From a virus: 25,176 bases of DNA. Positions 14 through 21,035 of this stretch are shown here, piece by piece (the stretch's first letter is position 1; each line of letters begins with the position of its first letter). The DNA lies in the IMG/VR virus record IMGVR_UViG_3300005511_000078, positions 1-25,176 of that record; one strand, 5' to 3'. The notes under the pieces were generated by a model, which worked only from the letters and a program-made list of their open reading frames with translations, was not told the DNA's origin and ran no database searches. A program made the translations under genes and the position numbers.

Positions 14-26
14 ACAAATTTGTCAA
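14..26. promoter_or_regulatory. Putative repressor operator, site 1
   Basis: This is the 13-mer ACAAATTTGTCAA, with the perfect 10-base palindrome ACAAATTTGT at 14-23. It is one of six copies in the window and lies just past the stop codon of the repressor gene. On the minus strand it reads TTGACA at its left end, so it could cover the -35 of a leftward promoter whose -10 lies outside the window. Binding by the neighbouring repressor is inferred from repetition and placement, not shown. Confidence 0.6.
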
Positions 27-39
27 GCGTCAATTTTTG

Positions 40-651
40 TCACCCGGCAGAAATCCGCTCAGAAAGGACGATGACATGCACAGCCTCAACGTCTCGAATT
101 GTCATCTCCTTGCCGCCGGCCTCGATGATAGCTTGCGCATCGGCCAGCGTAACCAGCCGACCCAGCCAGGCGACGCCGCCCTTGGCGTGCACCAGAACTT
201 CATTGCCGGGCTTCGGCCAGATCGCCGGATCCAGCCAAGCTTTTGTGCCAACCAGCAGCGCCGGCTCCATGACCTTAGTGTCTATGAGAATGGCGTATCG
301 GCCTTCCGGTATGCGCTTGCGGCCCTGGTTGAACGCTTCGAACGCATACTTGCCGGTCTTGCGGTCTGTCACCTTGCCGTAAACGCGCGCCGAGCCGTAA
401 GCCGCGGCAAGCTTGGTGTTGCCGGTCGACTGGCTTGCCTCATCGACGAGCTCCGCCACCATATCGGTGCTGATGTTCAGAAACTTGGCGATCGACGCAA
501 ACATGTGCTGTCGCGGCGCGCTGCCGTTCTTCCACCGGCTGAACGTTTGCTGCAGCCAATCGTATTTCGCGGCCACTTCGCGATCGGTCATGCCCTGTTT
601 GGTTTGCTCGTTCGCCAGCATCTGCGCGAATCTTGATTTAGAGGGGGGCAT
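40..651 (-). CDS. CI/C2-like phage repressor with degenerate S24 domain
   Basis: This is a 203-residue protein. The N-terminus (about residues 20-60) reads as a helix-turn-helix of the XRE/Cro type, and the C-terminus (about 118-168) has the layout of a LexA/CI S24 domain, with I-D-T-K-V-M-E-P followed by a P-G-N-E-V-L-V strand. In active S24 peptidases a Ser precedes M-x-P and a Lys lies in the later V-K-R-L motif. Here those positions are Val127 and Gly164, so self-cleavage is unlikely. It should bind operator DNA and maintain lysogeny by repressing early promoters. The start is uncertain: ATG at 651 has an AGGTAGG Shine-Dalgarno at good distance, while GTG at 657 is the longer alternative with poor spacing. 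It is the only clear leftward gene. Confidence 0.85.
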   Translation of the reverse strand: MPPSKSRFAQMLANEQTKQGMTDREVAAKYDWLQQTFSRWKNGSAPRQHMFASIAKFLNISTDMVAELVDEASQSTGNTKLAAAYGSARVYGKVTDRKTGKYAFEAFNQGRKRIPEGRYAILIDTKVMEPALLVGTKAWLDPAIWPKPGNEVLVHAKGGVAWLGRLVTLADAQAIIEAGGKEMTIRDVEAVHVIVLSERISAG

Positions 652-676
652 ATTCACCTACCTGCCCGCGTCGGGC

Positions 677-729
677 TTGCCACGTTAGGCATGTTTACAC
701 TACACATTCGGTTATTACAAATTTGTCAA
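677..729. promoter_or_regulatory. Divergent control region with operator site 2
   Basis: This lies between the repressor gene and the first rightward gene. The operator 13-mer ACAAATTTGTCAA is at 717-729. Rightward, TTTACA (694-699) and TACAAA (716-721) are 16 bases apart, so the operator would cover the -10. Leftward, the complement gives TTGACA (729-724) with a weak TGTGTA 17 bases further on, so the same operator would cover the -35 of the repressor promoter. This predicts that one site controls both early transcription and autoregulation. The operator match is exact; the promoter hexamers are only moderate. Confidence 0.55.
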
Positions 730-779
730 GGCGTCAACCGCGCTTTGGCGAGTGCCACCACCACCAAGAGGAGACCACG

Positions 780-1241
780 ATGAGCCAAGCGGCAATCGTC
801 ACATATAAGCACATCGCGAGAGTACGCCAGCTTCTAGGCGAGTTTGCCGTGGAGATGATCAGGCGCGGAGACGTGCATGATGCATCGAAGTTCGACCCTA
901 TCGAGATGGGGCCGCTTGAGGAGATGCAAAAGGTCGTCGACACAGAAGGCCAAGCGCCGTTCGGATCCGACGAATACAAGCGGCGCACCGACATGCTAGG
1001 GCCGATGATTGAGCACCATCGAGCCAACAATAGCCACCATCCGGAATTCTACGCCGACGGCGTCGCCGGGATGGACCTTTTCGATGTCGTCGAAATGTTT
1101 TTCGATTGGCGGGCAGCCAGCGAGCGCGGCGAAGAGTCTGCGATGAACCTCAACTTCGCCTGCGACAAATACAAAATCGACGGCGAGCTACGCGGCATCC
1201 TTTTTAACACGGCGGCTCGGCTCGGCTACGCCACCAAGTAA
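780..1241 (+). CDS. DUF5662 family protein
   Basis: This is a 153-residue protein. It matches the DUF5662 pattern as I know it: an N-terminal helix with H-x-x-x-V-R-x-L-L-G, then V-H-D-A-S-K-F, a P-F-G-S-D-E-Y segment, E-H-H-R-A-N-N-S-H-H-P-E, and a closing M-D-L-F-D-V-V-E-M-F-F-D-W-x-A-A block. The ordered His and Asp residues suggest a metal-binding, HD-like helical fold, but no activity is established for the family. The ATG at 780 has a GGAG six bases upstream inside the repeated CA-rich leader; an in-frame TTG at 723 lies inside the operator and is rejected. It is the first gene of the rightward transcript, so it should be expressed immediately on derepression. Confidence 0.75.
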   Translation: MSQAAIVTYKHIARVRQLLGEFAVEMIRRGDVHDASKFDPIEMGPLEEMQKVVDTEGQAPFGSDEYKRRTDMLGPMIEHHRANNSHHPEFYADGVAGMDLFDVVEMFFDWRAASERGEESAMNLNFACDKYKIDGELRGILFNTAARLGYATK

Positions 1242-1274
1242 TCACCCACCACACCACCACCAAGAGGAGACCAC
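1242..1274 (+). repeat. Start-associated CA-rich leader (example of a repeated element)
   Basis: This is the clearest copy of a leader found before many genes. It is a C/A-only tract of CCACCAC units followed by AAGAGGAGACCAC and the start codon. Related copies end just before the starts at 780, 3387, 5005, 5670, 6263, 8597, 10936, 11478, 13919, 20138 and 20771, with a weaker one before 21066. The conserved part is (A)GAGGAGA, giving a strong Shine-Dalgarno 4-8 bases from the start; the CA tract is probably unstructured RNA. Genes without it are mostly those overlapping the previous stop codon. Confidence 0.7.
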
Positions 1275-1625
1275 ATGGACAATTGCATTCAGACCGCCAG
1301 CGTTGACGAAATCACCAGAGCGCTCAGAGAAGAAGGTCTTTCACTTCGCCAGATCGGCGAACGCCTTGGCCTCAGCCATCAGGCCGTTTACTTCCGGCTC
1401 GGCGGCAAGCGCACGCCGCTCCGCACCAATCCCCCTCCCGCAGCCAACGACAACAAGACTATCAAGATGATGCCGCACAACGGCGGCTATTCTACCGTCT
1501 CCGGCATGATGCCCGTTTCGCTGCGGCGCATCCCCACCATGGACGTTGCAGAAGTCGCGCCGTCGGCCCGTGAACTGCAGGTCTCCGGTCTTGGTGACGA
1601 TATCGGCTTCGGGGTGGCGGCATGA
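1275..1625 (+). CDS. Small helix-turn-helix protein
   Basis: This is a 116-residue protein. Residues 10-42 form a homeodomain-like or sigma-region-4-like helix-turn-helix (E-I-T-R-A-L-R-E-E-G-L-S-L-R-Q-I-G-E-R-L-x-L-S...), the pattern seen in resolvase C-termini and small phage DNA-binding proteins. The rest is low-complexity, has a P-A-A-N-D-N tract and no recognisable domain. It is preceded by the repeated leader with GGAG five bases from the ATG. Its position second in the early transcript makes a regulator of early genes plausible, but its target is unknown. The stop overlaps the next start (ATGA). Confidence 0.6.
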   Translation: MDNCIQTASVDEITRALREEGLSLRQIGERLGLSHQAVYFRLGGKRTPLRTNPPPAANDNKTIKMMPHNGGYSTVSGMMPVSLRRIPTMDVAEVAPSARELQVSGLGDDIGFGVAA

Positions 1626-1930
1626 GCGACACCACAGAGCACTGCGATTGCGAATACTTCTCCGAAGGTGACTGGGTCGAATCCAAGCTGAATTCCAATG
1701 TCTTCGGCATTGTCGTCGGAGAGGCTGACTTCGGTCGCTTCTACCACGTCCAGCTTACCAACACCCTGGAAGTGCGGCCGCTTCATGCCGTAACGCTGCG
1801 GCACATGGCCATTCAGCAGGACGAACCGCCTACGGCCGCCAAGCAGCCCGTGGACGACAACGTCATCCCGGTCGACTTCACCAAAGGGCGCAAGCTGCGT
1901 CCGGATACCACCACGGAAGGAGCAGCGTGA
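1622..1930 (+). CDS. Hypothetical protein, SH3/KOW-like core
   Basis: This is a 102-residue protein that starts inside the previous stop (ATGA), suggesting translational coupling. Residues 12-60 read as a small beta-barrel: E-G-D-W-V-E-S, then F-G-I-V-V-G, then a hydrophobic strand and V-R-P-L-H-A-V-T-L-R-H. This is the same general build as the G-D-x-V modules of the next gene. The C-terminal 40 residues are polar and probably disordered. I do not recognise a named family. The similarity to its neighbour suggests an origin by duplication of an SH3-like module. Confidence 0.5.
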   Translation: MSDTTEHCDCEYFSEGDWVESKLNSNVFGIVVGEADFGRFYHVQLTNTLEVRPLHAVTLRHMAIQQDEPPTAAKQPVDDNVIPVDFTKGRKLRPDTTTEGAA

Positions 1931-3321
1931 TGGGGAAGTTTAAGGTCGGCGACAAGGTGCGCCTGACGGAAGACTATTCAAAATGGGTCGCCGGAACTGA
2001 GAGCGTGATCGAACAAATCCTGGCTGGCGATTCCGGTGATGATGATCTGATCTATACCGACACAGTGAGGGGGGCGTTCGCTCGCCGATTCGAGCTGGTG
2101 CCGGTCTGGCAGCCGAAGGTCGGCGACCGGGTGTTGATGAAGCCCGATAGCGCTTGGGCCTGTGATGCGACCGTAGGGCCTGGAACCGTTTTTCCGGCAG
2201 AAAAAGAGGGACGTTTCATCGTAAAGTTCGACGTGGATAATGGCTTTCCGTGGAATGTAAGCGTAACCGACATCGAACCGCTGCCCGTTGCCACAGAAGC
2301 GCAACTGGCGCCGCTTGCGGAAGCGCCTGCTTGGACGCCTAAGGTCGGCGATCGGGTGCGACTGGTAAAGGACGGGCGCTCAACGACCGGCGCTGTCGGC
2401 AAAACAGCGACGATCAGTTCATGGGTCGGAGGAGTGCTGGTCGATACTGACGAATATCTGCTCGATATCGATCCGCCGGTTGATTACAAGACTGCAGCCG
2501 CCACCGAGAACTTTACTCGTGCAACGATCGACTGCTTCGAACCGCTGCTGGCCGCCTCCACACCCACACCCCTCACCATTACTGCCGGCCGCTACTACAA
2601 GACGCGCGATGGTCGGAAGGTCGGGCCGGTAGTTATCGGCAAAGACACGGCATGGGGCGAGACTTCCGACGGATCTGCTTGGGTGTTCACGGCGACAGGT
2701 CGCGCGAACTACGAAGGCGAGCACCCAGACGACTATGTCGCCGAATGGGTCGACGAACCAGCAGAACAGCCAGCCGTTGCAGTTGCGACCAGCAACGACA
2801 ACGCGGCGCCGGCCAAGTTCAAGGTGGGTGATAGGGTAAAAATCACCGCCACGGACTGGCCTGAATACATCAGCATTGGCGAGGTTCTGAAGGTCGTCAA
2901 GGTTGATGATGACGGCTTCTATCCGCTGTCGAGGGATGGGCACGACTGGCTATACTTTTATTTCAGTGAAGGCGTACTGGCTGGATCACATCCCCCCACC
3001 GCCATCGTTGCCCTGATCGAAAACGGCCAGCCGAAGCCATCTGTTCTGCCGCATGTCCACGCGACTGAAGCGGCGGCAGCCAAGGAAGCGGAGCGCCTCG
3101 CCTCTGTCCACAAGGGCCAGCAATTCGGCGTCTATGTCCTGACGACCACCAGCCAGGAGCCGGCACCGACCTACGGCCACGAATGGCAGCGGCTTGCCGT
3201 CGCCGGTCGCAGAATCGACGCCATCAAGGAGCTGCGTTCCGTTACTGGGATGCAGCTGAAGCCAGCCAAGGACGTCGTCGAGCACTTCGTCAACTACCCG
3301 TACGGGCAGCTCGCCGCCTAA
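1930..3321 (+). CDS. Multi-module SH3/KOW-repeat protein with L7/L12-like C-terminus
   Basis: This is a 463-residue protein. Four modules begin with F/P-K-V-G-D-[KR]-V, near residues 4, 61, 136 and 297, each followed by alternating strands, as in SH3/KOW barrels. Between the third and fourth lies a different module beginning I-T-A-G-R-Y-Y-K-T-R-D-G. Near residue 375 comes V-H-A-T-E-A-A-A-A-K-E-A-E-R-L-A, and at 427-451 a segment R-R-I-D-A-I-K-E-L-R-S-V-T-G, then L-K-P-A-K-D-V-V-E. That last segment follows the ribosomal L7/L12 C-terminal pattern (K-x-x-x-I-K-x-x-R-x-x-T-G-x-x-L-x-x-A-K-x-x-V-E). Function is unknown; binding to the translation or transcription machinery is a guess. ATG at 1930 is preferred over GTG at 1927 because AGGAG (1918-1922) sits seven bases upstream. 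It overlaps the previous stop. Confidence 0.65.
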   Translation: MGKFKVGDKVRLTEDYSKWVAGTESVIEQILAGDSGDDDLIYTDTVRGAFARRFELVPVWQPKVGDRVLMKPDSAWACDATVGPGTVFPAEKEGRFIVKFDVDNGFPWNVSVTDIEPLPVATEAQLAPLAEAPAWTPKVGDRVRLVKDGRSTTGAVGKTATISSWVGGVLVDTDEYLLDIDPPVDYKTAAATENFTRATIDCFEPLLAASTPTPLTITAGRYYKTRDGRKVGPVVIGKDTAWGETSDGSAWVFTATGRANYEGEHPDDYVAEWVDEPAEQPAVAVATSNDNAAPAKFKVGDRVKITATDWPEYISIGEVLKVVKVDDDGFYPLSRDGHDWLYFYFSEGVLAGSHPPTAIVALIENGQPKPSVLPHVHATEAAAAKEAERLASVHKGQQFGVYVLTTTSQEPAPTYGHEWQRLAVAGRRIDAIKELRSVTGMQLKPAKDVVEHFVNYPYGQLAA

Positions 3322-3386
3322 CACCACCACCAAAACCACCACAGCAACGCCGTGCGCCCACCAAGCGCACGGCTGAGAGGAGACTT

Positions 3387-3695
3387 ATGACCAAAGCATT
3401 CAAACAGGCGCTGGCCGATCACCACGCCAACGACTTCAAACTCGGCATGCCATCGACGGACGAGGGCCACTTCGCCAGACGTATGATCCTGATGGAACGC
3501 CTCACCGGCGGCAAGGGCTTTCGGTCGCCGGCCAAGGAGCCAGCACCGCGCGGCAGCGGCAAGACGCGCGGCGAGATGAAGCGTGAGGCACGCGAGCGCG
3601 CAAATGCAGCCGTTAGCGAAATCCGACCGTTCCAGCACATGCACAGCGCGGCACGCCGTCGGGTTCTTGCCGCAGAAGTGGCGGCCGTCGCATGA
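3387..3695 (+). CDS. Hypothetical basic protein
   Basis: This is a 102-residue protein I do not recognise. It is rich in Arg, Lys and Ala, largely helical by composition, with a central G-S-G-K-T-R-G-E-M stretch that resembles part of a P-loop but lacks the preceding hydrophobic strand, so no ATPase is claimed. The start at 3387 is set by a GAGAGGAGA Shine-Dalgarno in the repeated leader; the same frame is open far upstream inside the previous gene, which is not used. Its stop overlaps the next gene by ATGA. Confidence 0.5.
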   Translation: MTKAFKQALADHHANDFKLGMPSTDEGHFARRMILMERLTGGKGFRSPAKEPAPRGSGKTRGEMKREARERANAAVSEIRPFQHMHSAARRRVLAAEVAAVA

Positions 3696-3952
3696 CCAAC
3701 ATCATGCCACCACTCACCGGCACGCCGCTGGATTACGTGCCGATCGACGCTCCGGTCGGTAAGGCCGCACCGCCCACCCGCTTCCATGCGCCCATCATCC
3801 GCCGTGCCGCAATCGCTGCGGCCGCACTCGGCGGTGCCGTGGCCGCTCTGCTCTTCATCCCGGTCGCGACCATCGCAATCATCGTGATGGTCGGCTCGGT
3901 ATGGGGCGCCGACAAGGCAATCAAGAGGTTCCAGCAATATGACGAAACCTGA
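3692..3952 (+). CDS. Small membrane protein
   Basis: This is an 86-residue protein with a hydrophobic stretch at about residues 39-72 (Ala-rich, then L-L-F-I-P-V-A-T-I-A-I-I-V-M-V), long enough for one long or two closely packed membrane segments with a short turn at the Pro. The N-terminus is proline-rich and the C-terminus is charged. It is coupled to the previous gene by ATGA and overlaps the next tiny membrane gene by 14 bases. It has no recognised family. Small early phage membrane proteins often act in superinfection exclusion or in altering the host envelope; that is only a possibility here. Confidence 0.55.
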   Translation: MTNIMPPLTGTPLDYVPIDAPVGKAAPPTRFHAPIIRRAAIAAAALGGAVAALLFIPVATIAIIVMVGSVWGADKAIKRFQQYDET

Positions 3953-4070
3953 CGCGGCCGGCATGTGGCCGCCCAATCCGTTCAGCTGGTGGCCCGTCAT
4001 CGTGGCCGTCTGCATCTTCATCGCAGTTTGCTTTTTCCCAGGAGGAAAGCATGGCAATCTCGCTTGGTAG
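3939..4070 (+). CDS. Tiny single-span membrane protein
   Basis: This is a 43-residue ORF. The N-terminal 18 residues contain M-T-K-P-D and a W-P-P-N-P-F-S-W-W motif, followed by a hydrophobic helix at 19-33 (P-V-I-V-A-V-C-I-F-I-A-V-C-F-F) and a short tail. It starts before the stop of the upstream membrane gene and ends 20 bases inside the ATPase gene, so all three would be translated as a chain. An AGAGG at 3924-3928 is ten bases upstream of the ATG. It occupies the only stretch between the two clear genes, which supports it; there is no homology evidence. Confidence 0.45.
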   Translation: MTKPDAAGMWPPNPFSWWPVIVAVCIFIAVCFFPGGKHGNLAW

Positions 4071-4830
4071 CTTGAACAGCACCAAAAACAACAAGCCGCC
4101 GATCGGCGTGCTCTATGGTGTCCACGGCGTCGGCAAGACGCAACTGGCATCAGAGTTCCCCGATCCCTACTACCTGCCGACCATGGGCGAGGAGCCGCCA
4201 GATGGCGTCGACATGCCGTCGCCAGGTGTCGCCGAAAGCCTCGAAGACATCCTTGATGTCATTGGTTGGCTGCTCACCAATGAGCACGACCGCAAGACCT
4301 TCATCCTCGATTCGGTCGACGGCGCAGAAAATCTGGTGTGGCGCGCCACCTGCGCTCGCCTCGGCCTCAATAGCATCGAGGATGCTGGCTTCGGCAAGGG
4401 CTATGTCGAGGCGGATACCGAGTGGCGCGAACTGCTCAGCGGCCTGCAGGCTCTTCGCGATGCCGGCATTGCCGTGGTGCTCCTTGCCCACACTGAAATC
4501 ACGCGGTTCGACAGCCCGACCAGCGACCCATACAGCCGCTACGGCATCAAGCTCCACAAGCGAGCCTCGGCACTGGTGCAGGAAACAGCGCAGTTTGTCG
4601 GCTTCGTCAACTACCGTCATTCCCTGAAGGAGAAGGAAGTCGGGTTCAACAAGAAGGTGGCGCACGCCGAAGGCAGCGGAGAGCGGCAGATCCACCTCGA
4701 GGAGCGTCCCGGCTTTCTCGCCAAGTCTCGCTATTCGACGCCGGCAGCCATCACCTACAAGAAGGGGAAGGGCTGGGACGAGCTTTCGAAATACATGCCG
4801 GCACCAGCTGGGTTGCAGGAGGCGGCCTGA
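4051..4830 (+). CDS. Sak4-like RecA-fold ATPase (AAA_24), recombination
   Basis: This is a 259-residue protein. It has Walker A G-V-H-G-V-G-K-T at residues 23-30, a Walker B strand T-F-I-L-D-S-V-D-G with Asp87, and a later strand I-A-V-V-L-L-A-H-T-E. This is the layout of the phage AAA_24/Sak4 family, compact RecA relatives that promote single-strand annealing or strand exchange with a partner SSB. The next functional gene encodes a DUF669 ssDNA-binding-type protein, consistent with such a pair. A near-consensus AGGAGG lies just before the ATG at 4051. It is probably cytoplasmic and acts in phage recombination and repair. The ATPase call is solid; Sak4 is the best fit. Confidence 0.85.
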   Translation: MAISLGSLNSTKNNKPPIGVLYGVHGVGKTQLASEFPDPYYLPTMGEEPPDGVDMPSPGVAESLEDILDVIGWLLTNEHDRKTFILDSVDGAENLVWRATCARLGLNSIEDAGFGKGYVEADTEWRELLSGLQALRDAGIAVVLLAHTEITRFDSPTSDPYSRYGIKLHKRASALVQETAQFVGFVNYRHSLKEKEVGFNKKVAHAEGSGERQIHLEERPGFLAKSRYSTPAAITYKKGKGWDELSKYMPAPAGLQEAA

Positions 4831-5004
4831 TGTTCCGCGGAGAATCTTGGTTTGCCTGGCCCTGTACTAGCCCGCACGCGCGGCGGCATCATGCGGTGGG
4901 TCTATACAAGCGTCTGGCGAGACCAGACCACGACGCAATACGGTAGCGGGCCGTACCGCTACTACCTGCTCTAACCAACCACCACACCACAGAAGGAGAC
5001 TAGC
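4831..5004 (+). other. Gap with two candidate micro-ORFs and an inverted repeat
   Basis: No clear gene is present. A 38-codon ORF (4830-4946) starts by ATGA coupling to the ATPase stop. A second frame has ATG at 4891 and ends at 4974 (27 residues, ending G-P-Y-R-Y-Y-L-L), or begins at TTG 4852; its aromatic-rich content looks slightly more protein-like. Neither has a convincing Shine-Dalgarno. GTCTGG (4912-4917) and CCAGAC (4923-4928) form an inverted repeat with a 5-base loop, matching six bases of the heptamer clustered near 19.9 kb. The last 27 bases are the CA-rich leader of the next gene. Confidence 0.35.
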
Positions 5005-5613
5005 ATGGCCAGACTTGGCGCATCAGTACAGGTTACCGAAGAGGCTCTGAAACAGCCGGAATTCGGCAATATCCCCAATGGCATCTACGAGCTGGAAATC
5101 ACGGCGTCTGACGTGATCGAAAAGAACAAGGACACGCCGCAGCATTCCATCACGGTCAAGACGACCATGGACGTCATTGCTCCGGAAGAATATCGCGGCC
5201 GGAAGATTTTCTCGAATTACAATATCCAGCATCCGAACAGCGACACGCAGCGCATTGGCAATCAGCAGTTCCAGGCGCTGCTTGCAGCTCTCAAAATCTA
5301 CGAGCTCAGCGAAGACGCCGATACGCAGGAGCTGCACCTGATCTCGTTCCGTGCTCGCATCGGCATGGGCAAGGACAGCAAGGAGAAGAACGCGGACGGC
5401 TCGCCGAAGTATGCCGCTCGCAATGAAATCAAGGCTTACTTCTTCCCTGAAGATCCACAGGGAAAGCCTCTTCCGGATGTTGGTATCGATGCCAACCAGC
5501 CAGCCGCCGCGAAGCCAGCGGCTGCGAACGACAATCGCGCTCCGGCCGGACGTCCTGCACCTGCTGCGACAGGCGGGGCGCCGGCTGCTCGTAGGCCGTG
5601 GGGCCAGAAGTAA
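5005..5613 (+). CDS. DUF669 family ssDNA-binding-type protein
   Basis: This is a 202-residue protein. Residues 1-150 follow the DUF669 pattern: G-N-I-P-N-G-I-Y-E-L-E-I, a beta-rich core with Y-R-G-R-K-I-F-S-N-Y-N-I, a helix Q-R-I-G-N-Q-Q-F-Q-A-L-L-A-A-L, then a second beta region with a N-E-I-K-A-Y-F strand. The last 45 residues are Pro/Ala-rich with A-A-N-D-N and end in R-R-P-W-G-Q-K, like the flexible tail of an SSB. DUF669 proteins sit in phage recombination cassettes and are thought to coat ssDNA. Its position directly after the Sak4-like gene supports that role. The start has the repeated leader with GGAG six bases upstream. Confidence 0.75.
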   Translation: MARLGASVQVTEEALKQPEFGNIPNGIYELEITASDVIEKNKDTPQHSITVKTTMDVIAPEEYRGRKIFSNYNIQHPNSDTQRIGNQQFQALLAALKIYELSEDADTQELHLISFRARIGMGKDSKEKNADGSPKYAARNEIKAYFFPEDPQGKPLPDVGIDANQPAAAKPAAANDNRAPAGRPAPAATGGAPAARRPWGQK

Positions 5614-5669
5614 CATTTGGCGGGTCGTCACCAACGGCCCGCCGTATCACCACAACTGAGGAGACCAAC

Positions 5670-6203
5670 ATGCGCGATCTTATGATCGATATCGAGACGC
5701 TCGGCACTGCACCGGGTAGCGTCATTTTGAGCATCGGCGCTGTGGCGTTTGACGCTGAAACGGGAGAATTCGGCGAAGAGTACTATGCAGCCATCGACCC
5801 GCAATCTTGCATAGACCTCGGGCTTTCGGTGGACATGTCCACACTGAAATGGTGGATGGCGCAGTCTGAAGAGGCTCGATCTGCCGCCTTCGCCGGCTCC
5901 GACTACCTGTCCAAGGCGCTGTACGATCTGCATCAGTTCGTCGCCAACGCTGAGCCGTCGCGCGTCTGGGCAAAGCCACCATCGTTCGATCTGGTGCTGT
6001 TGGAATCGGCGTATCGAGCATGCGCCATCGATATCCCTTTCCACTACAGGACGAATCGAGACTGCCGGACATTGTTCGACATTACCGGCGCGGTTCAGCC
6101 CGATGTTGGCACGACTCACAATGCGCTTGATGACGCAAAGTCTCAGGCGCTCGGCGTCATTGATGCTTACCGTATCCTCGCCACTCGCCAGCTCGCCGCC
6201 TAA
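5670..6203 (+). CDS. DEDDh 3'-5' exonuclease
   Basis: This is a 177-residue protein. ExoI motif is M-I-D-I-E-T with Asp7 and Glu9; ExoII Asp is probably Asp107 (P-S-F-D-L-V-L); ExoIII is H-N-A-L-D-D with His150 and Asp155. Together these make a DEDDh exonuclease. The D-P-Q-S-C-I-D-L-G-L and L-K-W-W-M segments match the RNase T/Rv2179c-like phage group (DUF5051). It should remove nucleotides from 3' ends of DNA or RNA. It is too small to be a polymerase proofreading domain with extra parts, and no polymerase is encoded nearby. It sits between the SSB-like protein and the sliding clamp. The start is fixed by the leader before 5670. Confidence 0.85.
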   Translation: MRDLMIDIETLGTAPGSVILSIGAVAFDAETGEFGEEYYAAIDPQSCIDLGLSVDMSTLKWWMAQSEEARSAAFAGSDYLSKALYDLHQFVANAEPSRVWAKPPSFDLVLLESAYRACAIDIPFHYRTNRDCRTLFDITGAVQPDVGTTHNALDDAKSQALGVIDAYRILATRQLAA

Positions 6204-6262
6204 CACCACACCGCCGCATAGCCACCACCATGCGGCATCCACCACAAGAGGAGATTACCAGC

Positions 6263-7333: not shown

Positions 7334-7335
7334 AC

Positions 7336-8570: not shown

Positions 8571-8596
8571 CCACCACCACAAGAGGAGACAACACC

Positions 8597-9118
8597 ATGG
8601 CCCACGCCACCACTGCGCCCGCCGATACGCGCCCCGTCGAGTTTGACGCGAGGCTCATGAACTACTACCCGCACCTCATGCGCCTATCCGGCAGGTTGTC
8701 CAACAACAAGACCGAGCAGGAAGACCTATTCCAAGACAGCATCGCCTACATCTTGGCGCATTGGACGTCGTTCCGACCGGATGGCGGATTCTATAACTGG
8801 ATCACCCTATGCATGCGCCATGTCGCGCAGAACGGCCGGCGCAAGTCGCGCGTCAGATCACGGCATATGCCTACCGTGTCCGACGAGCGCGCAATGGCTG
8901 CTGTGATGGTATCGCCGAACCAAACGGACTCCGTGTCGCTCAATGAAACGCTGGCGGCGCTTGATCCTGGCCGATCCGGCGAGATCGTCATGATGCGCGC
9001 CATGGGCGAGACGCTTGAAACCATCGGCGCCAAGTACGGCATCGGCAAGGAGCGCGTGCGCCAGATCGAAGAGAAAGAGCGCAAGCGGCTGAAGCTGGGG
9101 AGGCCGCTTGATGCTTGA
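8597..9118 (+). CDS. Small sigma-70-family (ECF-like) factor
   Basis: This is a 173-residue protein. Residues 18-85 resemble sigma region 2 (L-F-Q-D-S-I-A-Y-I-L-A-H-W, then G-G-F-Y-N-W-I-T-L-C-M-R-H-V-A-Q-N), and 115-166 resemble region 4, with the helix-turn-helix L-E-T-I-G-A-K-Y-G-I-G-K-E-R-V-R-Q-I-E matching sigma region 4.2. Regions 1 and 3 are absent, as in ECF factors. It could direct host RNA polymerase to a subset of phage promoters; no anti-sigma gene is seen. The start at 8597 has the repeated leader. It overlaps the helicase start by 8 bases, so the two are coupled. A sigma-derived regulator without promoter recognition is an alternative. Confidence 0.75.
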   Translation: MAHATTAPADTRPVEFDARLMNYYPHLMRLSGRLSNNKTEQEDLFQDSIAYILAHWTSFRPDGGFYNWITLCMRHVAQNGRRKSRVRSRHMPTVSDERAMAAVMVSPNQTDSVSLNETLAALDPGRSGEIVMMRAMGETLETIGAKYGIGKERVRQIEEKERKRLKLGRPLDA

Positions 9119-10847: not shown

Positions 10848-10851
10848 CGCG

Positions 10852-10888
10852 TTGACAAATTTGTATGTTTACACCAAGGTGTGACAAT
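10852..10888 (+). promoter_or_regulatory. Operator site 3 with possible promoter
   Basis: The operator 13-mer lies in reverse orientation at 10852-10864, five bases after the helicase stop codon. On the plus strand it starts with TTGACA. TTGTAT (10861-10866) and GACAAT (10883-10888), 16 bases apart, could form a rightward promoter for the metallophosphoesterase and the genes after it. The promoter hexamers are moderate; the operator match is exact. Confidence 0.5.
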
Positions 10889-10935
10889 CACCAGCGCCCA
10901 CCAAGCGCGAATGCACACCACGAAGAGGAGACGAC

Positions 10936-11436
10936 ATGACCACGCGCGACGTTTGGTTCATTAGCGACACCCATTTTGGCCACAACAATATCATCACGTA
11001 TTGCCGGCCTCAGTTCTCCTCTGTTGAGGAGATGGAAGATTCCATCATCACCAAATGGAACGAAAAGGTTAAGCCGCAGGATCTGGTCTATCACCTCGGC
11101 GATTTTGCATGGAAAACGTCAGATGCGATGCGCGTTCGGCCACTTCTGAACGGTGCCATCCGACTCATCGTCGGAAATCATGACGACATACCGTCACTTG
11201 CAGCGGCCGGCCTATTCCAGCGCTTCTATCTCTGGAAGCAATTCCGCGAAGAGGGCTTCACGGCCTCACACATTCCGATGCGGTTTGATCAATTGCGGCA
11301 TGGTGCGAAGAACCTCCATGGACACGTTCACGGCAATCTCAACGGTCTGGAAGACTTCCATCGCGATATGTCTGTGGAAAGCATCGGCTTCGCACCTGTT
11401 CATTTCGACGATATCGCCCTTTGGGCAAAGTCTTAA
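10936..11436 (+). CDS. Calcineurin-like metallophosphoesterase
   Basis: This is a 166-residue protein with the full motif set: D-T-H-F-G-H (Asp11, His13, His16), L-G-D-F (Asp56), G-N-H-D (Asn81, His82), His112, and G-H-V-H-G (His130, His132). It should hydrolyse a phosphoester using two metal ions. Small phage members of this family act on nucleotides, nucleic acid ends or proteins; the substrate here cannot be read from sequence. It is the first gene after operator site 3, so it probably begins a separate repressor-controlled unit. The start has the repeated leader. Confidence 0.9.
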   Translation: MTTRDVWFISDTHFGHNNIITYCRPQFSSVEEMEDSIITKWNEKVKPQDLVYHLGDFAWKTSDAMRVRPLLNGAIRLIVGNHDDIPSLAAAGLFQRFYLWKQFREEGFTASHIPMRFDQLRHGAKNLHGHVHGNLNGLEDFHRDMSVESIGFAPVHFDDIALWAKS

Positions 11437-11477
11437 GCGCCAACCTGCGCAACCACCACACCACGAAGAGGAGATTG

Positions 11478-13814: not shown

Positions 13815-13820
13815 CCTTCA

Positions 13821-13847
13821 CGCGTCATAGATGGCCCATATGACGCG
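13821..13847 (+). terminator. 9-bp hairpin after small-gene run, weak terminator or processing site
   Basis: CGCGTCATA (13821-13829) pairs perfectly with TATGACGCG (13839-13847) across a 9-base loop. It sits between the end of the small-gene run and the leader of the adenine methylase. No U-tract follows directly, so factor-independent termination would be weak; a processing site or a protein-binding palindrome is equally possible. Confidence 0.35.
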
Positions 13848-13918
13848 CCAACGTATCATTTATGAACCCTATCGCGCCACCAACGCGCGGGACTGCACCA
13901 CAAGAGGAGATAGAATTG

Positions 13919-15291: not shown

Positions 15292-15665
15292 CAAAACTCC
15301 CCACCGGAAAATCCGTAACTCCCTTCACCCCAACCGTCGACGCCATAGGCGATCCCACCTGCTGCTTTGCCTGCGGCATGCGTGCCGTTGCGCTCGGCAT
15401 CAACCACAAACCAGGCGACCCGCAATATCTGTGCCGGAGGTGCATCGTGGCGATCGACGATTACAAGAAAATCCGCCGGCTCGACGAGTTTGAGCTCGCC
15501 GCCTTGGATGCTGGCGTGGACGCGGTCGGCGAATACATCAACGAACGCGGTCTGGGGCCCGACCTGTCGCTCTACGACGAGCTCGACCAGCGGATGTTGG
15601 TAAAAGCTGCGTGGGAAGGGTGCGCGCGCGGGCTGAGGGCTGCTTTGAAGGAGGCGCCGTTTTGA
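15288..15665 (+). CDS. DUF6511 family protein with zinc ribbon
   Basis: This is a 125-residue protein. A four-cysteine zinc ribbon is visible (C-C-F-A-C at 25-29 and C-R-R-C at 49-52). The rest matches the DUF6511 pattern: D-E-F-E-L-A-A-L-D-A-G, then G-E-Y-I-N-E-R-G, and a final helix A-W-E-G-C-A-R-G-L-R-A-A-L. No activity is known for the family. It is coupled to the HNH gene (ATGA) and to the cytosine methylase, whose TTG start lies inside its last codons. Confidence 0.7.
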   Translation: MTKLPTGKSVTPFTPTVDAIGDPTCCFACGMRAVALGINHKPGDPQYLCRRCIVAIDDYKKIRRLDEFELAALDAGVDAVGEYINERGLGPDLSLYDELDQRMLVKAAWEGCARGLRAALKEAPF

Positions 15666-16921
15666 TCCGCGTCCTAGACCTGTTCAGCGCGGCAGCCGGC
15701 GGCTGGTCGCTAGGCATGCATCGTGCTGGCTACCGCACCATCGCCGCATGCGAAGTCATTGACTGGCGGCGCGCCCTATATTCCGAGAACAATCCGGGAG
15801 TTCCTGTTTATGACGATGTCGCCACCCTTACAGCAGACAGACTTATTCGGGATGGTGTTGGACTTCCCGATATCGTCGTCGGCAGCCCACCGTGCCAGGA
15901 CATCAGCAGCGCCAACACCAAAGGCAAAGGCGTCGACGGAGAGCGTTCAAGCCTCTACTTCGAAGCCGTCCGCATCATCGACGAATGCAGACCTCGTTGG
16001 TTCGCTCTTGAAAATAGCGCTAATCTCCGAACTAGAGGCGCAGACCGGGTTATCGATGCACTGGCGGCAATCGGCTACACCTGCTGGCCATTCGTGGTTA
16101 GTGCTGGAGACGTCGGTGCCAACCACGAACGCAAGCGAAGCTGGCTTGTCGGGTTCAATCTTTCACACGCCGACGACCAAGGCCAATTTCGCCGCGCTGA
16201 GTATGCAGAAATGGAAATCGTGCGGACCTTGGCGAGCACTCCTGGCGACGCCACGCAAGACGGACGCGGACAGGGGTGGGAGAGGGGACGTGCTGAGCCA
16301 ACTGAGGGGCTACCCGTCGAAGCATGCGGGGATGCCCCGCTATCTTCCGACGCCAGTGGCGAACGACGGGAAACTGGAGCCGTGGTCGGAAGCTTATGCG
16401 CGCCGACGGTCTCCGAAACTGGACGCACTAATGGACGGGGCGATGCGTTTGGAAACCCTGCCAACTCCAACGAAGCGCGACAAGCGGATGGACGGGTGGA
16501 GCCCGGCTTACGACAAGCGCAAGAGCCCGACGATGGACGCGGTGATGGATGGAGCGATGACGGGGAGAGCTTCGGACAAATGGGCAGGGGCGCGTGCCCT
16601 AGCTCAACTCCTGCAGAGCCATGGGCTGACTGGAACGGCGGCCTTGCCCATCACTTACGGGTGGATGATGGGCTATCCGGCTGGGTGGCTCAGTCGCGCA
16701 TTGCGGTTGGCGGTCCAAGGGGGACGGTTGCAGCTAGCCTTATCGTCGAAGCGTTCGGCGACGCCGTCTGCCCGCAAATCCCCGAAGCCATCGGCAGAGC
16801 CATTATAAGGGTGGAGCGCGCACTTGCCGCCATCACCCAAAACGAAAAACCCGCCGCTGCCAATAATAATGACAACGACGGGGTGCGTGATGAAAACAAT
16901 ACTAAAAATGCTGCCGCTTAA
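15662..16921 (+). CDS. Cytosine-C5 DNA methyltransferase, unusual recognition region
   Basis: This is a 419-residue protein. Motif I is D-L-F-S-A-A-A-G-G (6-14), the catalytic loop is G-S-P-P-C-Q (Cys78), motif VI is E-N-S (117-119), motif VIII is N-H-E-R-K-R-S-W, and a motif X-like F-G-D-A-V-C-P-Q-I-P-E-A-I-G lies near the end. It should methylate cytosine at C5 in a specific site. TTG 15662 is the start because AAGGAGG lies seven bases upstream. The middle (about 16164-16700) is low-complexity in this frame, whereas the +1 frame, open from 15723 to 16808, reads like the recognition region of related phage methylases (T-P-T-T-K-A-N, L-P-T-P, W-M-M-G-Y-P-A-G-W). Compensating frameshifts or alternative-frame use are possible. 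There is no restriction partner. Confidence 0.8.
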   Translation: MIRVLDLFSAAAGGWSLGMHRAGYRTIAACEVIDWRRALYSENNPGVPVYDDVATLTADRLIRDGVGLPDIVVGSPPCQDISSANTKGKGVDGERSSLYFEAVRIIDECRPRWFALENSANLRTRGADRVIDALAAIGYTCWPFVVSAGDVGANHERKRSWLVGFNLSHADDQGQFRRAEYAEMEIVRTLASTPGDATQDGRGQGWERGRAEPTEGLPVEACGDAPLSSDASGERRETGAVVGSLCAPTVSETGRTNGRGDAFGNPANSNEARQADGRVEPGLRQAQEPDDGRGDGWSDDGESFGQMGRGACPSSTPAEPWADWNGGLAHHLRVDDGLSGWVAQSRIAVGGPRGTVAASLIVEAFGDAVCPQIPEAIGRAIIRVERALAAITQNEKPAAANNNDNDGVRDENNTKNAAA

Positions 16922-16966
16922 CTTCCTTGGTAGCGTTCTAACCCGTAAACGCACTACTGTCAATAT

Positions 16967-16979
16967 ACAAATTTGTCAA
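16967..16979. promoter_or_regulatory. Putative repressor operator, site 4
   Basis: This is the 13-mer ACAAATTTGTCAA, ending six bases before the GAGGAG Shine-Dalgarno of the GIY-YIG gene. A TATACA hexamer (16964-16969) overlaps its left end and could be a -10, but no good -35 stands at the right distance. The repressor bound here would block initiation or elongation into the primase module. Confidence 0.5.
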
Positions 16980-16995
16980 GAAATGAGGAGTGCTG

Positions 16996-17628
16996 ATGCA
17001 GCCGCTTGAACGACCACCGAGCATAGAAATTATGGAAGCCAACGTGATTGAGGATCAGACTGGCAGCACTTTAGTCATGTGCGCAGATGACGAAGGTCAG
17101 ATTCTGCGGATGGAGGTTCGCGTCCTCGATAACGACTACCAGAGAAATTTGCGTGGTCAGAGCGCGCTGCATTATCTGCTCGGTGAACTCGGCATGATGC
17201 ATATCGATCGACCAGAGGATCTAGTATCAAAAAGATTGCACCGATGGGCGTGGGAAAAGGTTGCATCGATCGCGACACCGAAAACAACGCCTGCAGATGT
17301 GCAGCCAATCCAGATATCACCGCGGAGTGACAAGCCTAGTGATGGTCGGTTTGTCTACGTGATTTCATGCGAAGGTAGTGATCCGCCGCTGTGTAAGATC
17401 GGCATCGCCGGATCACCAGAGAAGCGCGTCAGACAGCTTTCGACGTCTAGCCCACATCATCTCAGGCTTGAAATGGCCAGGTACTCAGACCGAGCGCGCG
17501 CAGTGGAAGCTGCCGCGCATTCGCATTTTTCGCACGCGCGACGGAACGGCGAGTGGTTCGAAGTATGCGCAACCGAGGCGATCAGCTTCGTCAACTGTGA
17601 AATTACTCAGATGCGGAAAGCAGCATAA
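16996..17628 (+). CDS. GIY-YIG / T5orf172-like protein
   Basis: This is a 210-residue protein. Residues 117-190 match the T5orf172/MUG113 branch of GIY-YIG nucleases: G-R-F-V-Y-V-I, then C-K-I-G-I-A-G-S-P-E-K-R-V-R-Q-L, then R-A-V-E-A-A-A-H-S-H-F, then N-G-E-W-F-E-V. The N-terminal 110 residues form a separate domain of unknown type. It could be a DNA nicking or cleaving enzyme. ATG 16996 is chosen because GAGGAG ends five bases upstream; GTG 16990 overlaps that signal. It is coupled to the primase by TAATG, and both are downstream of operator site 4. Confidence 0.75.
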   Translation: MQPLERPPSIEIMEANVIEDQTGSTLVMCADDEGQILRMEVRVLDNDYQRNLRGQSALHYLLGELGMMHIDRPEDLVSKRLHRWAWEKVASIATPKTTPADVQPIQISPRSDKPSDGRFVYVISCEGSDPPLCKIGIAGSPEKRVRQLSTSSPHHLRLEMARYSDRARAVEAAAHSHFSHARRNGEWFEVCATEAISFVNCEITQMRKAA

Positions 17629-19787
17629 TGGCCAAGCTAAACTTCAAGGTTCCGCCGATCTCGCTCAATCGTGCGCCGATAGACGTCGCTCTGTCCTACG
17701 TATCCGCCGGGATACCCGTTTTCCCGTGCCGCGAGGAGCCGTCGGAAGGAATCGATTACTCCACCGGTGAAGTGATCGAGTTTGCGGAGAAGGCTCCGTA
17801 CACATCGGACGGCCTTCGCGGCGCGACTACGTCCACTCGCATCGTAAATATCCTGTTTGGCGAACGGCATACGGGCGCTGCAATTGGTGTGCCCACTGGC
17901 GAGAAGCTCGGCGGATGGGTTCTAGATCTGGATCGACACGGCGACCGAGACGGCCACGAATGGCTGAAGGAGATGGAGGCTATTCATGGCGAGTTGCCGG
18001 AAACCCCGAGGGCGAAGACAGCCAACGGTGGCACCCACATCTTCTTCAGGCATGTTCCCGGCATCCGAAACCGAGCGGCCATAGCGCCTGGGGTCGATAC
18101 GAGGGGTGACGGCGGGTACATTCTGAGTCCTGGCTCTGTGATGGCAGACGGTCGGCGTTACGAATGGCTGGACTGGCAGGGCGATGGGGTCCCAGAGTTC
18201 GCCGAGGCACCGGCATGGCTCGTCGACATGGTTATCACCAAGGCGCCACCACCGGCTGAGACCAAACCACGGGAATACACTTACCAACCAGAAGATGACG
18301 GGGCGGCTAGATACTTCTCTCGGGCGTTCGAACTGGAGCTATCAGCACTCGCTAGTCAGCCGACTGGCGGTCGCGGTCAAAAGCTGTTCGCCAGCGCGTG
18401 CTCTATCGGCGAGATCGTCGCAACCGGTAATATCTCGCGGTCTGACGCAGAGGAAGGCCTTATCGATGCCGCCCGTGCCAATGGCCTGGTAGCGAAGGAC
18501 GGTGAGCGGCAATGCTGGGACAAGATCAAGCGCGGCCTCGACAAGACGGCCAATTCACCGCGGCAACTGCCAGAGCGAGAATACGAAAACGACAATACGC
18601 CGGTGGACTCCGAGGGGATCAGCCGCATGGCTAAGAACACCATGGAGCGGAAGCGGCGAGAGGAGGCGGGAGATGCGTCGCCAGTAGAAGAACAGCCAAG
18701 CCGAGAGCAGCCGGCGCCAACCGAATCAACGGCGCCAAAAAAGCGTGAGCGTTTCGAACTGACATGGTTCGACGCGATCGAGGAGGGCCGACCGAAAGAG
18801 ACGATCCTGAAGGGCTGGCTGGGCGTCGGTGAATTCACCACCATCTCTGGCCTTCCTGGCACGGGCAAGAGTGTCGTGACCACCGATCTGGCGTGCCACA
18901 TCGCGGCTGGCATGGATTGGCACGGCATCAGGGTTCAGCAAGGCCTCGTCGTCTATGTCGCAGCAGAGCGCAAGAAACTGACCGAGCGGCGCATGATGGC
19001 CTTCCGTAAGCATCATGAAGTGAAAGATGTTCCACTGCTCGTCGTGGGCGGCATGCTTGACTTCACCCGCGACCAGAAGGACGCGGAGGAGATAGTCAAG
19101 GTTATCAAGGATGCCGAGACTATCACCGGTCACAAGTGTGTATGGGTGATTATCGACACCCTTACACGTGTCTTCGGTGCCGGCGACCAGAACGCATCAA
19201 AGGATATGGTGAAATTCGTCAGGTCTTGCGATTTCATCCTGACGGAGACGAAAGCGCACGTTACGGCCATTCACCACAGCGCCTGGAACGGCGAGCGAGG
19301 GAAGGGAGCCATCGACTTGGACGGTGCCGTGGACGCCTCGTTCATGGTCAAGAAGGATGGCAACAAGCATAGGCTAGTCTGCGACGGCACCAACGACGGC
19401 GAAGACGGGGATGTACTGACATTCACAATGAAGTCGATACAGATCGGTATGGACGAGGAGGGCGAGCCAACCACGGCGCCTGTCGTGGTGCCTGCCGACA
19501 TGATGGGCCCAGGCGAGCGTTTGACCGAGAGCATCAAAGGACACAGCGCCAGGGCGCTAGAAATCCTGCATGATCTAATCGGCTCCGTAGGCATTCCTCC
19601 CGAAGGCCCGCACTTCCCTGATAGCGTGCTCGTAGTCAAGGAGGAGACATGGCGTCAGGCGTTCTATGCCGACGACACCAAGGGCACAAAACAGGACACG
19701 CTGAGGGCTCGTTTCAAGCGAGCTCATGCATCGCTAGTGGAGACAAGGAAAGTGTCTCAGGTGGGTGAATGGGTGTTCCCGAGTTAG
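17628..19787 (+). CDS. Primase-polymerase / RepA-like helicase fusion
   Basis: This is a 719-residue protein. The N-terminal 190 residues are a bifunctional primase-polymerase (Prim-Pol) domain: G-I-P-V-F-P-C, K-A-P-Y, catalytic V-L-D-L-D (Asp100, Asp102), T-A-N-G-G-T-H, and G-V-D-T-R-G-D-G-G-Y-I. After a charged linker (about 320-375) comes a RecA-like helicase domain with Walker A G-L-P-G-T-G-K-S (408-415), Walker B I-I-D-T (Asp510) and the H-V-T-A-I-H-H-S sensor segment. It should prime and unwind phage DNA at initiation. A dense heptamer cluster starts immediately after its stop, a natural origin for this protein to act on. It is coupled to the GIY-YIG gene. Confidence 0.9.
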   Translation: MAKLNFKVPPISLNRAPIDVALSYVSAGIPVFPCREEPSEGIDYSTGEVIEFAEKAPYTSDGLRGATTSTRIVNILFGERHTGAAIGVPTGEKLGGWVLDLDRHGDRDGHEWLKEMEAIHGELPETPRAKTANGGTHIFFRHVPGIRNRAAIAPGVDTRGDGGYILSPGSVMADGRRYEWLDWQGDGVPEFAEAPAWLVDMVITKAPPPAETKPREYTYQPEDDGAARYFSRAFELELSALASQPTGGRGQKLFASACSIGEIVATGNISRSDAEEGLIDAARANGLVAKDGERQCWDKIKRGLDKTANSPRQLPEREYENDNTPVDSEGISRMAKNTMERKRREEAGDASPVEEQPSREQPAPTESTAPKKRERFELTWFDAIEEGRPKETILKGWLGVGEFTTISGLPGTGKSVVTTDLACHIAAGMDWHGIRVQQGLVVYVAAERKKLTERRMMAFRKHHEVKDVPLLVVGGMLDFTRDQKDAEEIVKVIKDAETITGHKCVWVIIDTLTRVFGAGDQNASKDMVKFVRSCDFILTETKAHVTAIHHSAWNGERGKGAIDLDGAVDASFMVKKDGNKHRLVCDGTNDGEDGDVLTFTMKSIQIGMDEEGEPTTAPVVVPADMMGPGERLTESIKGHSARALEILHDLIGSVGIPPEGPHFPDSVLVVKEETWRQAFYADDTKGTKQDTLRARFKRAHASLVETRKVSQVGEWVFPS

Positions 19788-19788
19788 G

Positions 19789-20024
19789 CCAGACAGACCA
19801 GACAAAGCCAGACATGTCTGGGTATGTCTGGCCAGACAATTCGATGTCGCTAATATACACAAATGTCTGGCCTAAATGTCTGGCCTAAACCCCAGAAACG
19901 ACAGGCCAGACATACCCAGACAAAACAGAAATGTCTGGGTCTAGTCTAATAAAAACAACAGCTTAGCGGATACCCAGACATTTAGCGTTTTCTTATATTG
20001 TCTGGTGAGCATCCTACCCAGACA
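19789..20024. repeat. 14-copy CCAGACA heptamer cluster, candidate replication origin
   Basis: CCAGACA or its complement TGTCTGG occurs 14 times in 236 bases. Forward copies start at 19789, 19798, 19808, 19832, 19906, 19916, 19974 and 20018. Reverse copies start at 19815, 19825, 19864, 19877, 19932 and 19999. Two pairs abut as 14-base perfect palindromes (19808-19821 and 19825-19838), and 19861-19886 is a 13-base tandem duplication (AAATGTCTGGCCT twice). AT-rich stretches lie between copies (around 19845-19865, 19945-19960 and 19980-20000). Placement directly behind the primase-helicase suggests an iteron-type origin; a regulator-binding array is the alternative. Confidence 0.75.
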
Positions 20025-20030
20025 TCATTC

Positions 20031-20050
20031 CCCCTTTCTTTAGAAAGGGG
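20031..20050 (+). terminator. 8-bp hairpin after heptamer cluster
   Basis: CCCCTTTC (20031-20038) pairs perfectly with GAAAGGGG (20043-20050) across the loop TTTA. Flanking sequence GACAT/ATGTC extends the stem imperfectly. No U-tract follows, so it may be a weak terminator, an origin hairpin or an RNA-stability element. The remaining sequence up to 20137 holds no gene, only the leader of the VRR-NUC gene. Confidence 0.4.
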
Positions 20051-20137
20051 ATGAATGTCGGGGTGCTTGTCGGGCTTTTGAAGAGAAGAAAAAATCTGGC
20101 CTCACCAGCCGCTACCAACCACCACAGGAGACCAACG

Positions 20138-20683
20138 ATGGCCAAGACCACCACCAAGACAACAGCCAAGAAAAAGCGCACCATTCAGACGACCCGCATC
20201 AATGGTGCCAAGGTTCGCCTGGTCACCGGAGTAGACGGTAAGATCACGGTCAAGCCGGCACCGATCGACGAATGGATTTTGCAGGCGGCTGCGGTTCGTG
20301 CTCTGAAGTCAATGCCGGAATACGCTGACGAGGCACTCGCGGTTGCCGATAACGACAATGCTGGGTGCCCGAGCTTCACTATAGCAGGCGACATGAACGG
20401 CGACTATCGAAGCATGCGAGCAGCGGTGAAGGCGCAGGCGACCGGCATTGCAGCAGGTGATCCCGATTTGCGAGTTTACCTGCCTGGCGGCGTGCTGCGC
20501 CTTATCGAGTACAAGAACGCGGAAGGCACGTTTACGGCAAGCCAGAAGAAGCGCCACCCGCTACTCATGGCTCTGGGGCATCCTGTCGTGACGGTGAAGA
20601 TCGCTACAGAGGAAGAAGCCGCAGCGCGAACCGTAGAGCTCGTACGTGGGTGGCTTGCTGAAGCTAGCGACAAAGCCGCTTGA
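20138..20683 (+). CDS. VRR-NUC domain nuclease
   Basis: This is a 181-residue protein. Residues 95-160 match the VRR-NUC fold, a PD-(D/E)XK variant: A-G-D-P-D (Asp108, Asp110), R-L-I-E-Y-K (Glu124, Lys126), Q136 in T-A-S-Q-K-K, and a closing A-L-G-H-P-V-V-T-V. Stand-alone phage VRR-NUC proteins are candidate Holliday-junction or flap nucleases. The N-terminal 20 residues are Lys/Thr-rich and probably bind DNA non-specifically; residues 25-95 form an unrecognised domain. ATG 20138 is fixed by the leader with AGGAG. Its TGA stop codon lies inside operator site 5. Confidence 0.85.
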   Translation: MAKTTTKTTAKKKRTIQTTRINGAKVRLVTGVDGKITVKPAPIDEWILQAAAVRALKSMPEYADEALAVADNDNAGCPSFTIAGDMNGDYRSMRAAVKAQATGIAAGDPDLRVYLPGGVLRLIEYKNAEGTFTASQKKRHPLLMALGHPVVTVKIATEEEAAARTVELVRGWLAEASDKAA

Positions 20684-20716
20684 CAAATTTGTAGAATGCA
20701 CGTAGAAAGCTAATAT
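20680..20716 (+). promoter_or_regulatory. Operator site 5 with promoter
   Basis: The reverse-oriented 13-mer is at 20680-20692. Two promoter readings overlap it: TTGACA (20680-20685) with TAGAAA (20703-20708), spacer 17; or TTGTAG (20689-20694) with TAATAT (20711-20716), spacer 16. In both the operator covers the -35. The promoter would drive the small secreted protein gene. Confidence 0.6.
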
Positions 20717-20770
20717 ACGCATTCCACAGCAACCAGCCGCCTAGCGGCCCACCACACAGAGGAGACCAAC

Positions 20771-21001
20771 ATGATCCGCATCCTTATCGCAGCAGCACTA
20801 ATCGCCATTCCGTTCAGCGCCAACGCCCAGGCCGTCGTCAGCAACGACTGCCAGCTGTCGCGCTTCATCGAAGCCTACGCATGGCAGGCCGTTGACGACG
20901 CAGAGCGCAACAACGTCTCTGCGTCACTCAAGAACGGCCTGCGTGTCTATCTGCGAACCGTCCAGCAGCAGACGAAGAAGGTTTGCCGCACGCAAGCTTG
21001 A
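20771..21001 (+). CDS. Small secreted protein with two cysteines
   Basis: This is a 76-residue protein. Residues 1-19 are a signal peptide with a hydrophobic core (I-L-I-A-A-A-L-I-A-I-P-F) and an A-N-A signal peptidase I site before Gln20. The mature part, about 57 residues, is helical by composition and has Cys27 and Cys72, one near each end, which could form a disulfide in the periplasm. No family is recognised. It has its own promoter and operator upstream and another operator that begins in its stop codon, so it is a repressor-controlled single gene. A role at the envelope, such as blocking another phage or changing adsorption, is possible but unsupported. Confidence 0.65.
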   Translation: MIRILIAAALIAIPFSANAQAVVSNDCQLSRFIEAYAWQAVDDAERNNVSASLKNGLRVYLRTVQQQTKKVCRTQA

Positions 21002-21035
21002 CAAATTTGTCATTTGTCGTTGAAAACCTTATATA
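20998..21035 (+). promoter_or_regulatory. Operator site 6 with strong promoter
   Basis: The reverse-oriented 13-mer is at 20998-21010. TTGTCA (21007-21012) and TATATA (21030-21035) are exactly 17 bases apart, one of the best promoter-like pairs in the window, with the operator overlapping the -35. The promoter would serve the gene at 21066. The stop codon of the upstream gene (20999-21001) lies within the operator. Confidence 0.65.

Follow-up and report, generated by a model that had tools for sequence, protein, structure and literature searches.

A dispersed palindromic motif and its predicted repressor in a temperate phage of the Rhizobium 16-3 family

The IMG/VR record IMGVR_UViG_3300005511_000078, itself a virus fragment, was analysed over its whole length of 25,176 bp (hereafter the window) with regard to a 13-bp motif, ACAAATTTGTCAA, that recurs in dispersed exact copies. 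Our analysis suggests, with a probability that we put at about 0.85, that the six copies are the operators of a single repressor, encoded at 40-657 and related to p070 of Rhizobium phage 16-3 (hereafter the p070-like protein), in a phage of the 16-3 family. The sequence comparisons point to promoter operators rather than to stoperators of the kind described in phage L5; binding of the protein to DNA, repression as the direction of its effect and the geometry of its dimer are what we infer from them.

DNA and protein comparisons assign the window to a temperate rhizobial phage of this family, of which it is a fragment, and group it with Rhizobium phages RHph_TM3_3_14B, RHph_X2_25 and 16-3, the last a model rhizobial phage for decades. 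The helix-turn-helix (HTH) protein of 40-657 shares 82% identity with its counterpart in RHph_TM3_3_14B, 60% in RHph_X2_25 and 55-56% in 16-3 (p070). In 16-3, p070 adjoins gene c, which encodes the immunity repressor C, and is distinct from C; the 16-3 record annotates no function for p070. Contig L017, which overlaps the window over 5,805 bp with 0 mismatches, adds 1,262 bp on the left. On this contig c starts about 700 bp past the stop codon of the p070-like gene, and the left end of the window thus falls just short of c.

The six copies have the coordinates and strands given in the original prediction, and the window holds no further copy. Six copies each of the 13-mer and of its 10-bp core are observed, whereas 0.0004 and 0.012, respectively, would be expected under a first-order Markov model of the window. 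All of them stand in gene junctions, in agreement with the non-coding or stop-codon placement that had been described, and the core is indeed palindromic, forming the 10-bp palindrome ACAAATTTGT. Its half-sites are spaced by 2 bp in all six copies (ACAA-AT-TTGT), and at site 6 the palindrome reaches further outward (TGACAAATTTGTCA).

Association of the motif with the p070-like gene

In the form TTGACAAATTTGT, the motif occurs at dispersed positions in each of the five annotated relatives, and it is present in 22/22 further records or genomes searched, where a reversed control pattern gave a single match. The 16-3 genome carries about eight dispersed copies, one-mismatch copies included. A profile search with p070 retrieved 27 loci (36-100% identity), in each of which an exact copy lies upstream of the gene, mostly accompanied by a second one downstream. 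With the C-terminal half as query, an exact upstream copy was found in 8 of the 9 loci listed, one of them shared with the first set, the copy of L109 being mismatched. Conversely, a search by the motif alone yielded 43 further contigs; of these, the gene was encoded by 10 of the 12 with at least three copies and by 2 of the 31 with one or two (Fisher p 2e-6).

Random positions over the host chromosome, which had been named as an outcome contrary to the operator reading, are not what the host genomes display, since most copies cluster with the p070-like gene. In Rhizobium esperanzae all seven copies lie inside one 48-kb stretch holding this gene, and the corresponding stretch contains 9/10 copies in R. 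leguminosarum, 5/7 in R. leucaenae, 6/7 in Shinella and 3/3 in Agrobacterium. In Ensifer sp., nine of ten copies are on one contig and the p070-like gene stands at the end of another. A host regulator was also considered as the binder and appears unlikely, the copies being found mainly in prophages. The idea of one repressor serving many single dispersed sites is thus supported, with the p070-like protein as its predicted binder; a single repressor with many dispersed inverted repeats in the early region is also found in the Streptomyces phage phiC31.

The protein itself (gene 40..657, minus strand) combines an XRE/434-type HTH with a LexA/CI-like C-terminal domain. The N-terminal XRE-type HTH matches HTH_3 above the curated cut-off, and also the 434 repressor, with whose recognition helix its own helix LQQTFSRWK (Gln36-Gln37) is aligned; the helix keeps QQ[TA] in 25 of 26 family members and reads KQA in the other one. 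An AlphaFold model derived from 26 sequences (pLDDT 84) has lambda CI and LexA as best matches in the Protein Data Bank, and profile comparison with 16-3 C gives a match over nearly the full length. In the 23 of 23 members with residues at the catalytic positions, Ser is changed to Val or Ile and Lys to Gly; RecA-driven self-cleavage is therefore not expected. Judged from its sequence, the p070-like protein is a cleavage-dead paralogue of C. It resembles the 434 repressor and lambda CI in the QQ of a 434-like recognition helix and in the fold of the C-terminal domain, and differs from them by the replaced Ser and Lys and by sites that are single and dispersed, not clustered. Operators of 434 carry ACAA half-sites 6 bp apart, against 2 in the motif of the window.

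Gene c lies just off the left end, and C itself might bind the dispersed sites as a third spacing of ACAA..TTGT, given that C of 16-3, according to the operators annotated for it, recognises ACAA half-sites spaced by 4 and 6 and that C of the window's phage likewise has a QQ helix. In RHph_TM3_3_14B, however, the helix of C reads SQPSISD and no ACAA..TTGT occurs at c, and the dispersed motif is still kept. Moreover, the 16-3 record annotates only OL1/OL2/OR1/OR2 for C, and the motif flanks p070, not c. As the specificity of C changes while the motif stays, C is ruled out as the general binder, and we regard its binding to these sites as quite unlikely. The six copies, with their spacing of 2, fit neither of the operator forms of C, ACAA-N4-TTGT and ACAA-N6-TTGT, and the operators of C are located elsewhere. 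The 16-3 system resembles the one described here in belonging to the same phage family, in its dispersed copies and in the ACAA half-site of C, and differs from it in that C has its annotated operators grouped at PL/PR, their half-sites spaced by 4 and 6.

The p070-like protein thus remains the favoured binder. The original prediction, which stands as to a repressor, the dispersal, the palindrome and the -35, and finds no support as to the likeness to L5, had not told this protein apart from C. What would be new is a cleavage-dead paralogue of C with more closely spaced half-sites and a regulon of its own, including a structured RNA. In the accessible literature, outside of which the primary papers on 16-3 lie, no description was found of a second repressor with its own genome-wide regulon beside C. 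The pair offers a natural experiment, with two paralogous repressors that share the ACAA half-site and are apparently separated by spacing (2 versus 4/6). The recognition helix of C was also seen to differ between close relatives, SQPSISD versus TQQAVNN (L009:6678-7418 and L017:6465-7067), which suggests different immunity groups.

Promoter anatomy and alternative readings

Promoter statistics were computed on 111 non-redundant motif sites. The informative columns around the 13-mer are a C before it, A[AG]A after it and T/A/T at positions 24, 25 and 29, where information peaks and which correspond to TANNNT placed 17 bp after TTGACA. This hexamer occurs with a spacer of 17 at 27 sites and at no more than 7 for any other spacer, with a mean of 1.3 and a maximum of 6 in shuffles. 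A same-strand gene start follows within 180 bp at 78 of 107 sites, compared with 22% of random positions, and an open frame ends at 71 sites, compared with 21% at random, the TGA of TTGACA being the stop codon in 21. From these gene-start, frame-end and spacer statistics we therefore conclude that the motif represents a promoter, situated where genes end and carrying a palindrome within its -35. They bear out the claim that the extension of the core doubles as a -35 hexamer, with sigma-70 geometry and a 17-bp spacer.

The two elements come apart in a clade of Agrobacterium phages, found via a pattern search for the RNA that is encoded downstream of the p070-like gene. The promoter of this RNA reads TTGACA-ATTCCTACAAATTTGTG-TAGGA, and ACAAATTTGT lies inside its 17-bp spacer, off the -35 and without the TCAA tail. 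The palindrome is separable from the -35, so that what is conserved as the core is the 10-bp palindrome, and TCAA belongs to the overlapping -35. This makes ACAAATTTGT the predicted operator and the asymmetric TCAA the shared -35. The TCAA extension had been taken as invariant, and it does accompany every copy in the window; it is missing in some relatives.

A motif in promoter position could alternatively be the -35 element for a phage-encoded sigma factor (8597-9118 in the window), such as many relatives encode, and not an operator. Five records that carry the motif yielded no sigma gene (G002 and G003, with 4-5 copies each, and G012, G014 and G015, with one each), the core is palindromic and able to sit in the spacer off the -35, and TTGACA corresponds to the usual consensus of the host. 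On these grounds the phage sigma factor was rejected as the reader of the motif, operator and -35 being separable, and this explanation seems highly improbable to us.

Stoperators, to which the motif had been likened, would block elongation at intergenic sites and not initiation. In L5 and other cluster A phages they are 13-bp asymmetric sites that recur over 20 times, within promoters and in the short spaces between genes; a monomeric two-domain repressor is thought to bind them, and elongation is stopped at the intergenic ones (PMC9283540). Dispersed sites at stop codons, mostly in one orientation relative to the genes, would agree with such a mechanism. Yet the core is palindromic and the protein CI/LexA-like, as opposed to a monomer on an asymmetric site; most sites are promoters into the next gene, the asymmetry corresponds to the overlapping -35, and the promoter signature at fixed spacing is a general rule, though some sites have no clear -10. 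Palindrome, promoter signature and protein fold together make the L5 reading very unlikely. By analogy, the system would rather work like the dispersed operators of P1, where the one repressor C1 serves 22 operators spread over the genome (PMC8546580). Copy number, spread and promoter overlap are matched here, with a single binder that we infer, and P1 also has an immunity antisense RNA, c4. The P1 operators differ in being 17-bp, asymmetric and unrelated in sequence, and the C1 protein is set beside the p070-like protein by description.

Activation instead of repression by the p070-like protein is to be weighed as well. Activation from sites close to the -35 is known for some HTH proteins, and the sequence holds nothing that would exclude activation outright. 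The operator nevertheless covers the -35 and the upstream spacer, which is a steric-block position, and can also lie wholly in the spacer, making activation unlikely.

Several observations weigh against the p070-like protein as a repressor acting at these sites. Its association with the motif could in principle reflect co-inheritance of the control region. In ACAA-N2-TTGT the half-sites are 6 bp apart, tighter than in the operators of 434 or of 16-3 C, and the geometry of binding proposed below is accordingly tentative. Stray copies, one or two per genome, are found away from the main cluster in R. leguminosarum, R. leucaenae and Shinella, and Ensifer sp. has the gene and most of the copies on separate contigs. 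Finally, only about one quarter of the sites have a TANNNT -10, and within the window sites 2, 3 and 4 have a weak one.

The six sites and their proposed roles

In the mechanism that we propose, a dimer of the 434-like HTH would read, through Gln36-Gln37, the ACAA half-site in ACAA-AT-TTGT. The palindrome overlaps the -35 of a host sigma-70 promoter (CTTGACAAATTTGT-N10-TANNNT, 17-bp spacer), so that bound repressor would block RNA polymerase. The immunity repressor C keeps its own clustered operators at PL/PR. The division of the early region into separately controlled units, as put forward in the original prediction, is supported.

Site 2 (717..729, plus strand) lies upstream of the repressor gene, between it and divergent genes, and could serve the autoregulation of the p070-like repressor. 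At site 1 (14..26, plus strand), the operator ACAAATTTGT overlaps a -35 (TTGACA on the minus strand) whose promoter points leftward, out of the window and into the structured RNA, the first GUGGUG loop of which is situated about 30 bp beyond the left end, on L017. The repressor would thereby silence this RNA, which is transcribed away from the repressor gene, on the strand of c. Sites 3, 5 and 6 would silence the next transcription units, into 10936, 20771 and 21066. Site 3 (10852..10864, minus strand) is a rightward operator-promoter with a weak -10, directly after a helicase gene, whose stop codon begins 7 bp ahead of it, and before a phosphoesterase gene at 10936; a copy likewise follows the helicase gene in 16-3, TM3_3_14B, X2_25, AP-16-3 and NV1.1.1. 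At sites 5 and 6, the gene ahead of the site terminates on the TGA contained in TTGACA. Site 5 (20680..20692, minus strand) forms a rightward TTGACA-N17-TAGAAA at the end of gene 20138-20683 and would drive gene 20771-21001. The latter gene ends in turn at site 6 (20998..21010, minus strand), where a rightward TTGACA-N17-TGAAAA or TTGTCA-N17-TATATA would drive gene 21066-21968.

At site 4 (16967..16979, plus strand) the -35 of the operator faces left and enters a methyltransferase gene from its 3' end; TTGACA-N17-TAGAAC, with a second TTGACA, stands beside it. In two relatives (L068 and L088) the same element, with the second TTGACA, is followed by leader-like sequence, and site 4 of the window therefore looks like an orphan of mosaic exchange. 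The stretch 16880-17100 is a mosaic junction, where a gene with a GIY-YIG (T5orf172/MUG113) domain comes after the methyltransferase gene; the second promoter, TTGACA-N17-TAGAAC, is conserved there and runs antisense into the 3' end of the methyltransferase gene.

Compared with the single sites of the window, several relatives have tandem operators 30-35 bp apart (L046:1802-1848, L071:1556-1603 and L079:1568 onward). A more distant phage, L059 (G013:2995-4747), carries several close-set copies, some of them perfect 16-bp palindromes (TTGACAAATTTGTCAA).

A structured RNA and the leaders of phage mRNAs

A conserved non-coding segment, about 150 nt long and shared across the phage family, lies downstream of the repressor gene and on the same strand as c. 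On L017 it occupies 5803-5960 (plus strand), between the p070-like gene and c, and contains conserved UGUGGUG, GUCUCCU and GGUGGUGCC segments. The RNA is made up of a hairpin with a UGUGGUG loop, a second stem with GUCUCCUC in its loop, and a hairpin of terminator type around a GUGGUG loop. When 14 sequences were aligned on a hand-drawn structure, 87.5% of the cells were paired, a figure inflated by the origin of this structure in one of the 14 sequences, and 19 of 30 pairs were changed on both sides. Covariation was strong in the same alignment, with a score of 0.402, against 0.178 in shuffles and 0.06-0.12 when the structure was slid. RNAalifold on the first alignment (A3), in which the terminator stems were poorly aligned, gave a weak consensus of 12 pairs. 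A pattern scan for the RNA found 38 viral contigs, several identical to contigs of the protein search, with the p070-like gene directly upstream in 37. The six sources scanned gave no Rfam match for the RNA, and a literature search on rhizobiophage small RNA no match either. The possibility that the opposite strand of this region carries a gene leader was dropped, as no start codon is conserved. Near the p070-like gene of Ensifer sp., the alphaproteobacterial small RNA ar35 of Rfam was noticed (L040:4383-4482).

Many mRNAs of the phage share a leader, CACCAC-n-[G]AGGAGAC-n-ATG, with 13 plus-strand pattern matches in the window (8 leaders, overlapping starts counted) and 0 in shuffles, for which the control pattern was CACCAC..AGGAGAC. 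The first leader lies at 756..782 and the others begin at 1247, 4980, 5648, 8572, 10916, 20120 and 20750, all on the plus strand. In four host genomes CACCAC..GAGGAGAC is almost confined to the prophage contig (11/12, 11/12, 6/6 and 2/3). The invariant segments of the RNA are complementary to this leader. We tentatively raise the possibility of a two-layer genome-wide switch, in which the p070-like repressor would silence scattered promoters, including that of the structured RNA; once this promoter is open, the RNA, with its two GUGGUG loops and invariant GUCUCCU, might pair in trans with the CACCAC..GAGGAGAC leaders and control their translation as a group. It should be kept in mind that complementarity of the anti-Shine-Dalgarno type is easily met and that the energies of short duplexes are no proof. 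If true, the linked RNA would represent a phage-wide post-transcriptional control, acting through a leader that many phage mRNAs have in common and that is almost missing from the rest of the host genomes.

Two further features of the window are a phage tRNA gene at 22411-22484 (Rfam RF00005, 64 bits) and a cluster of short CCAGACA / TGTCTGG repeats at 19785-20050, directly after a primase-helicase gene, which are possibly iterons of a replication origin.

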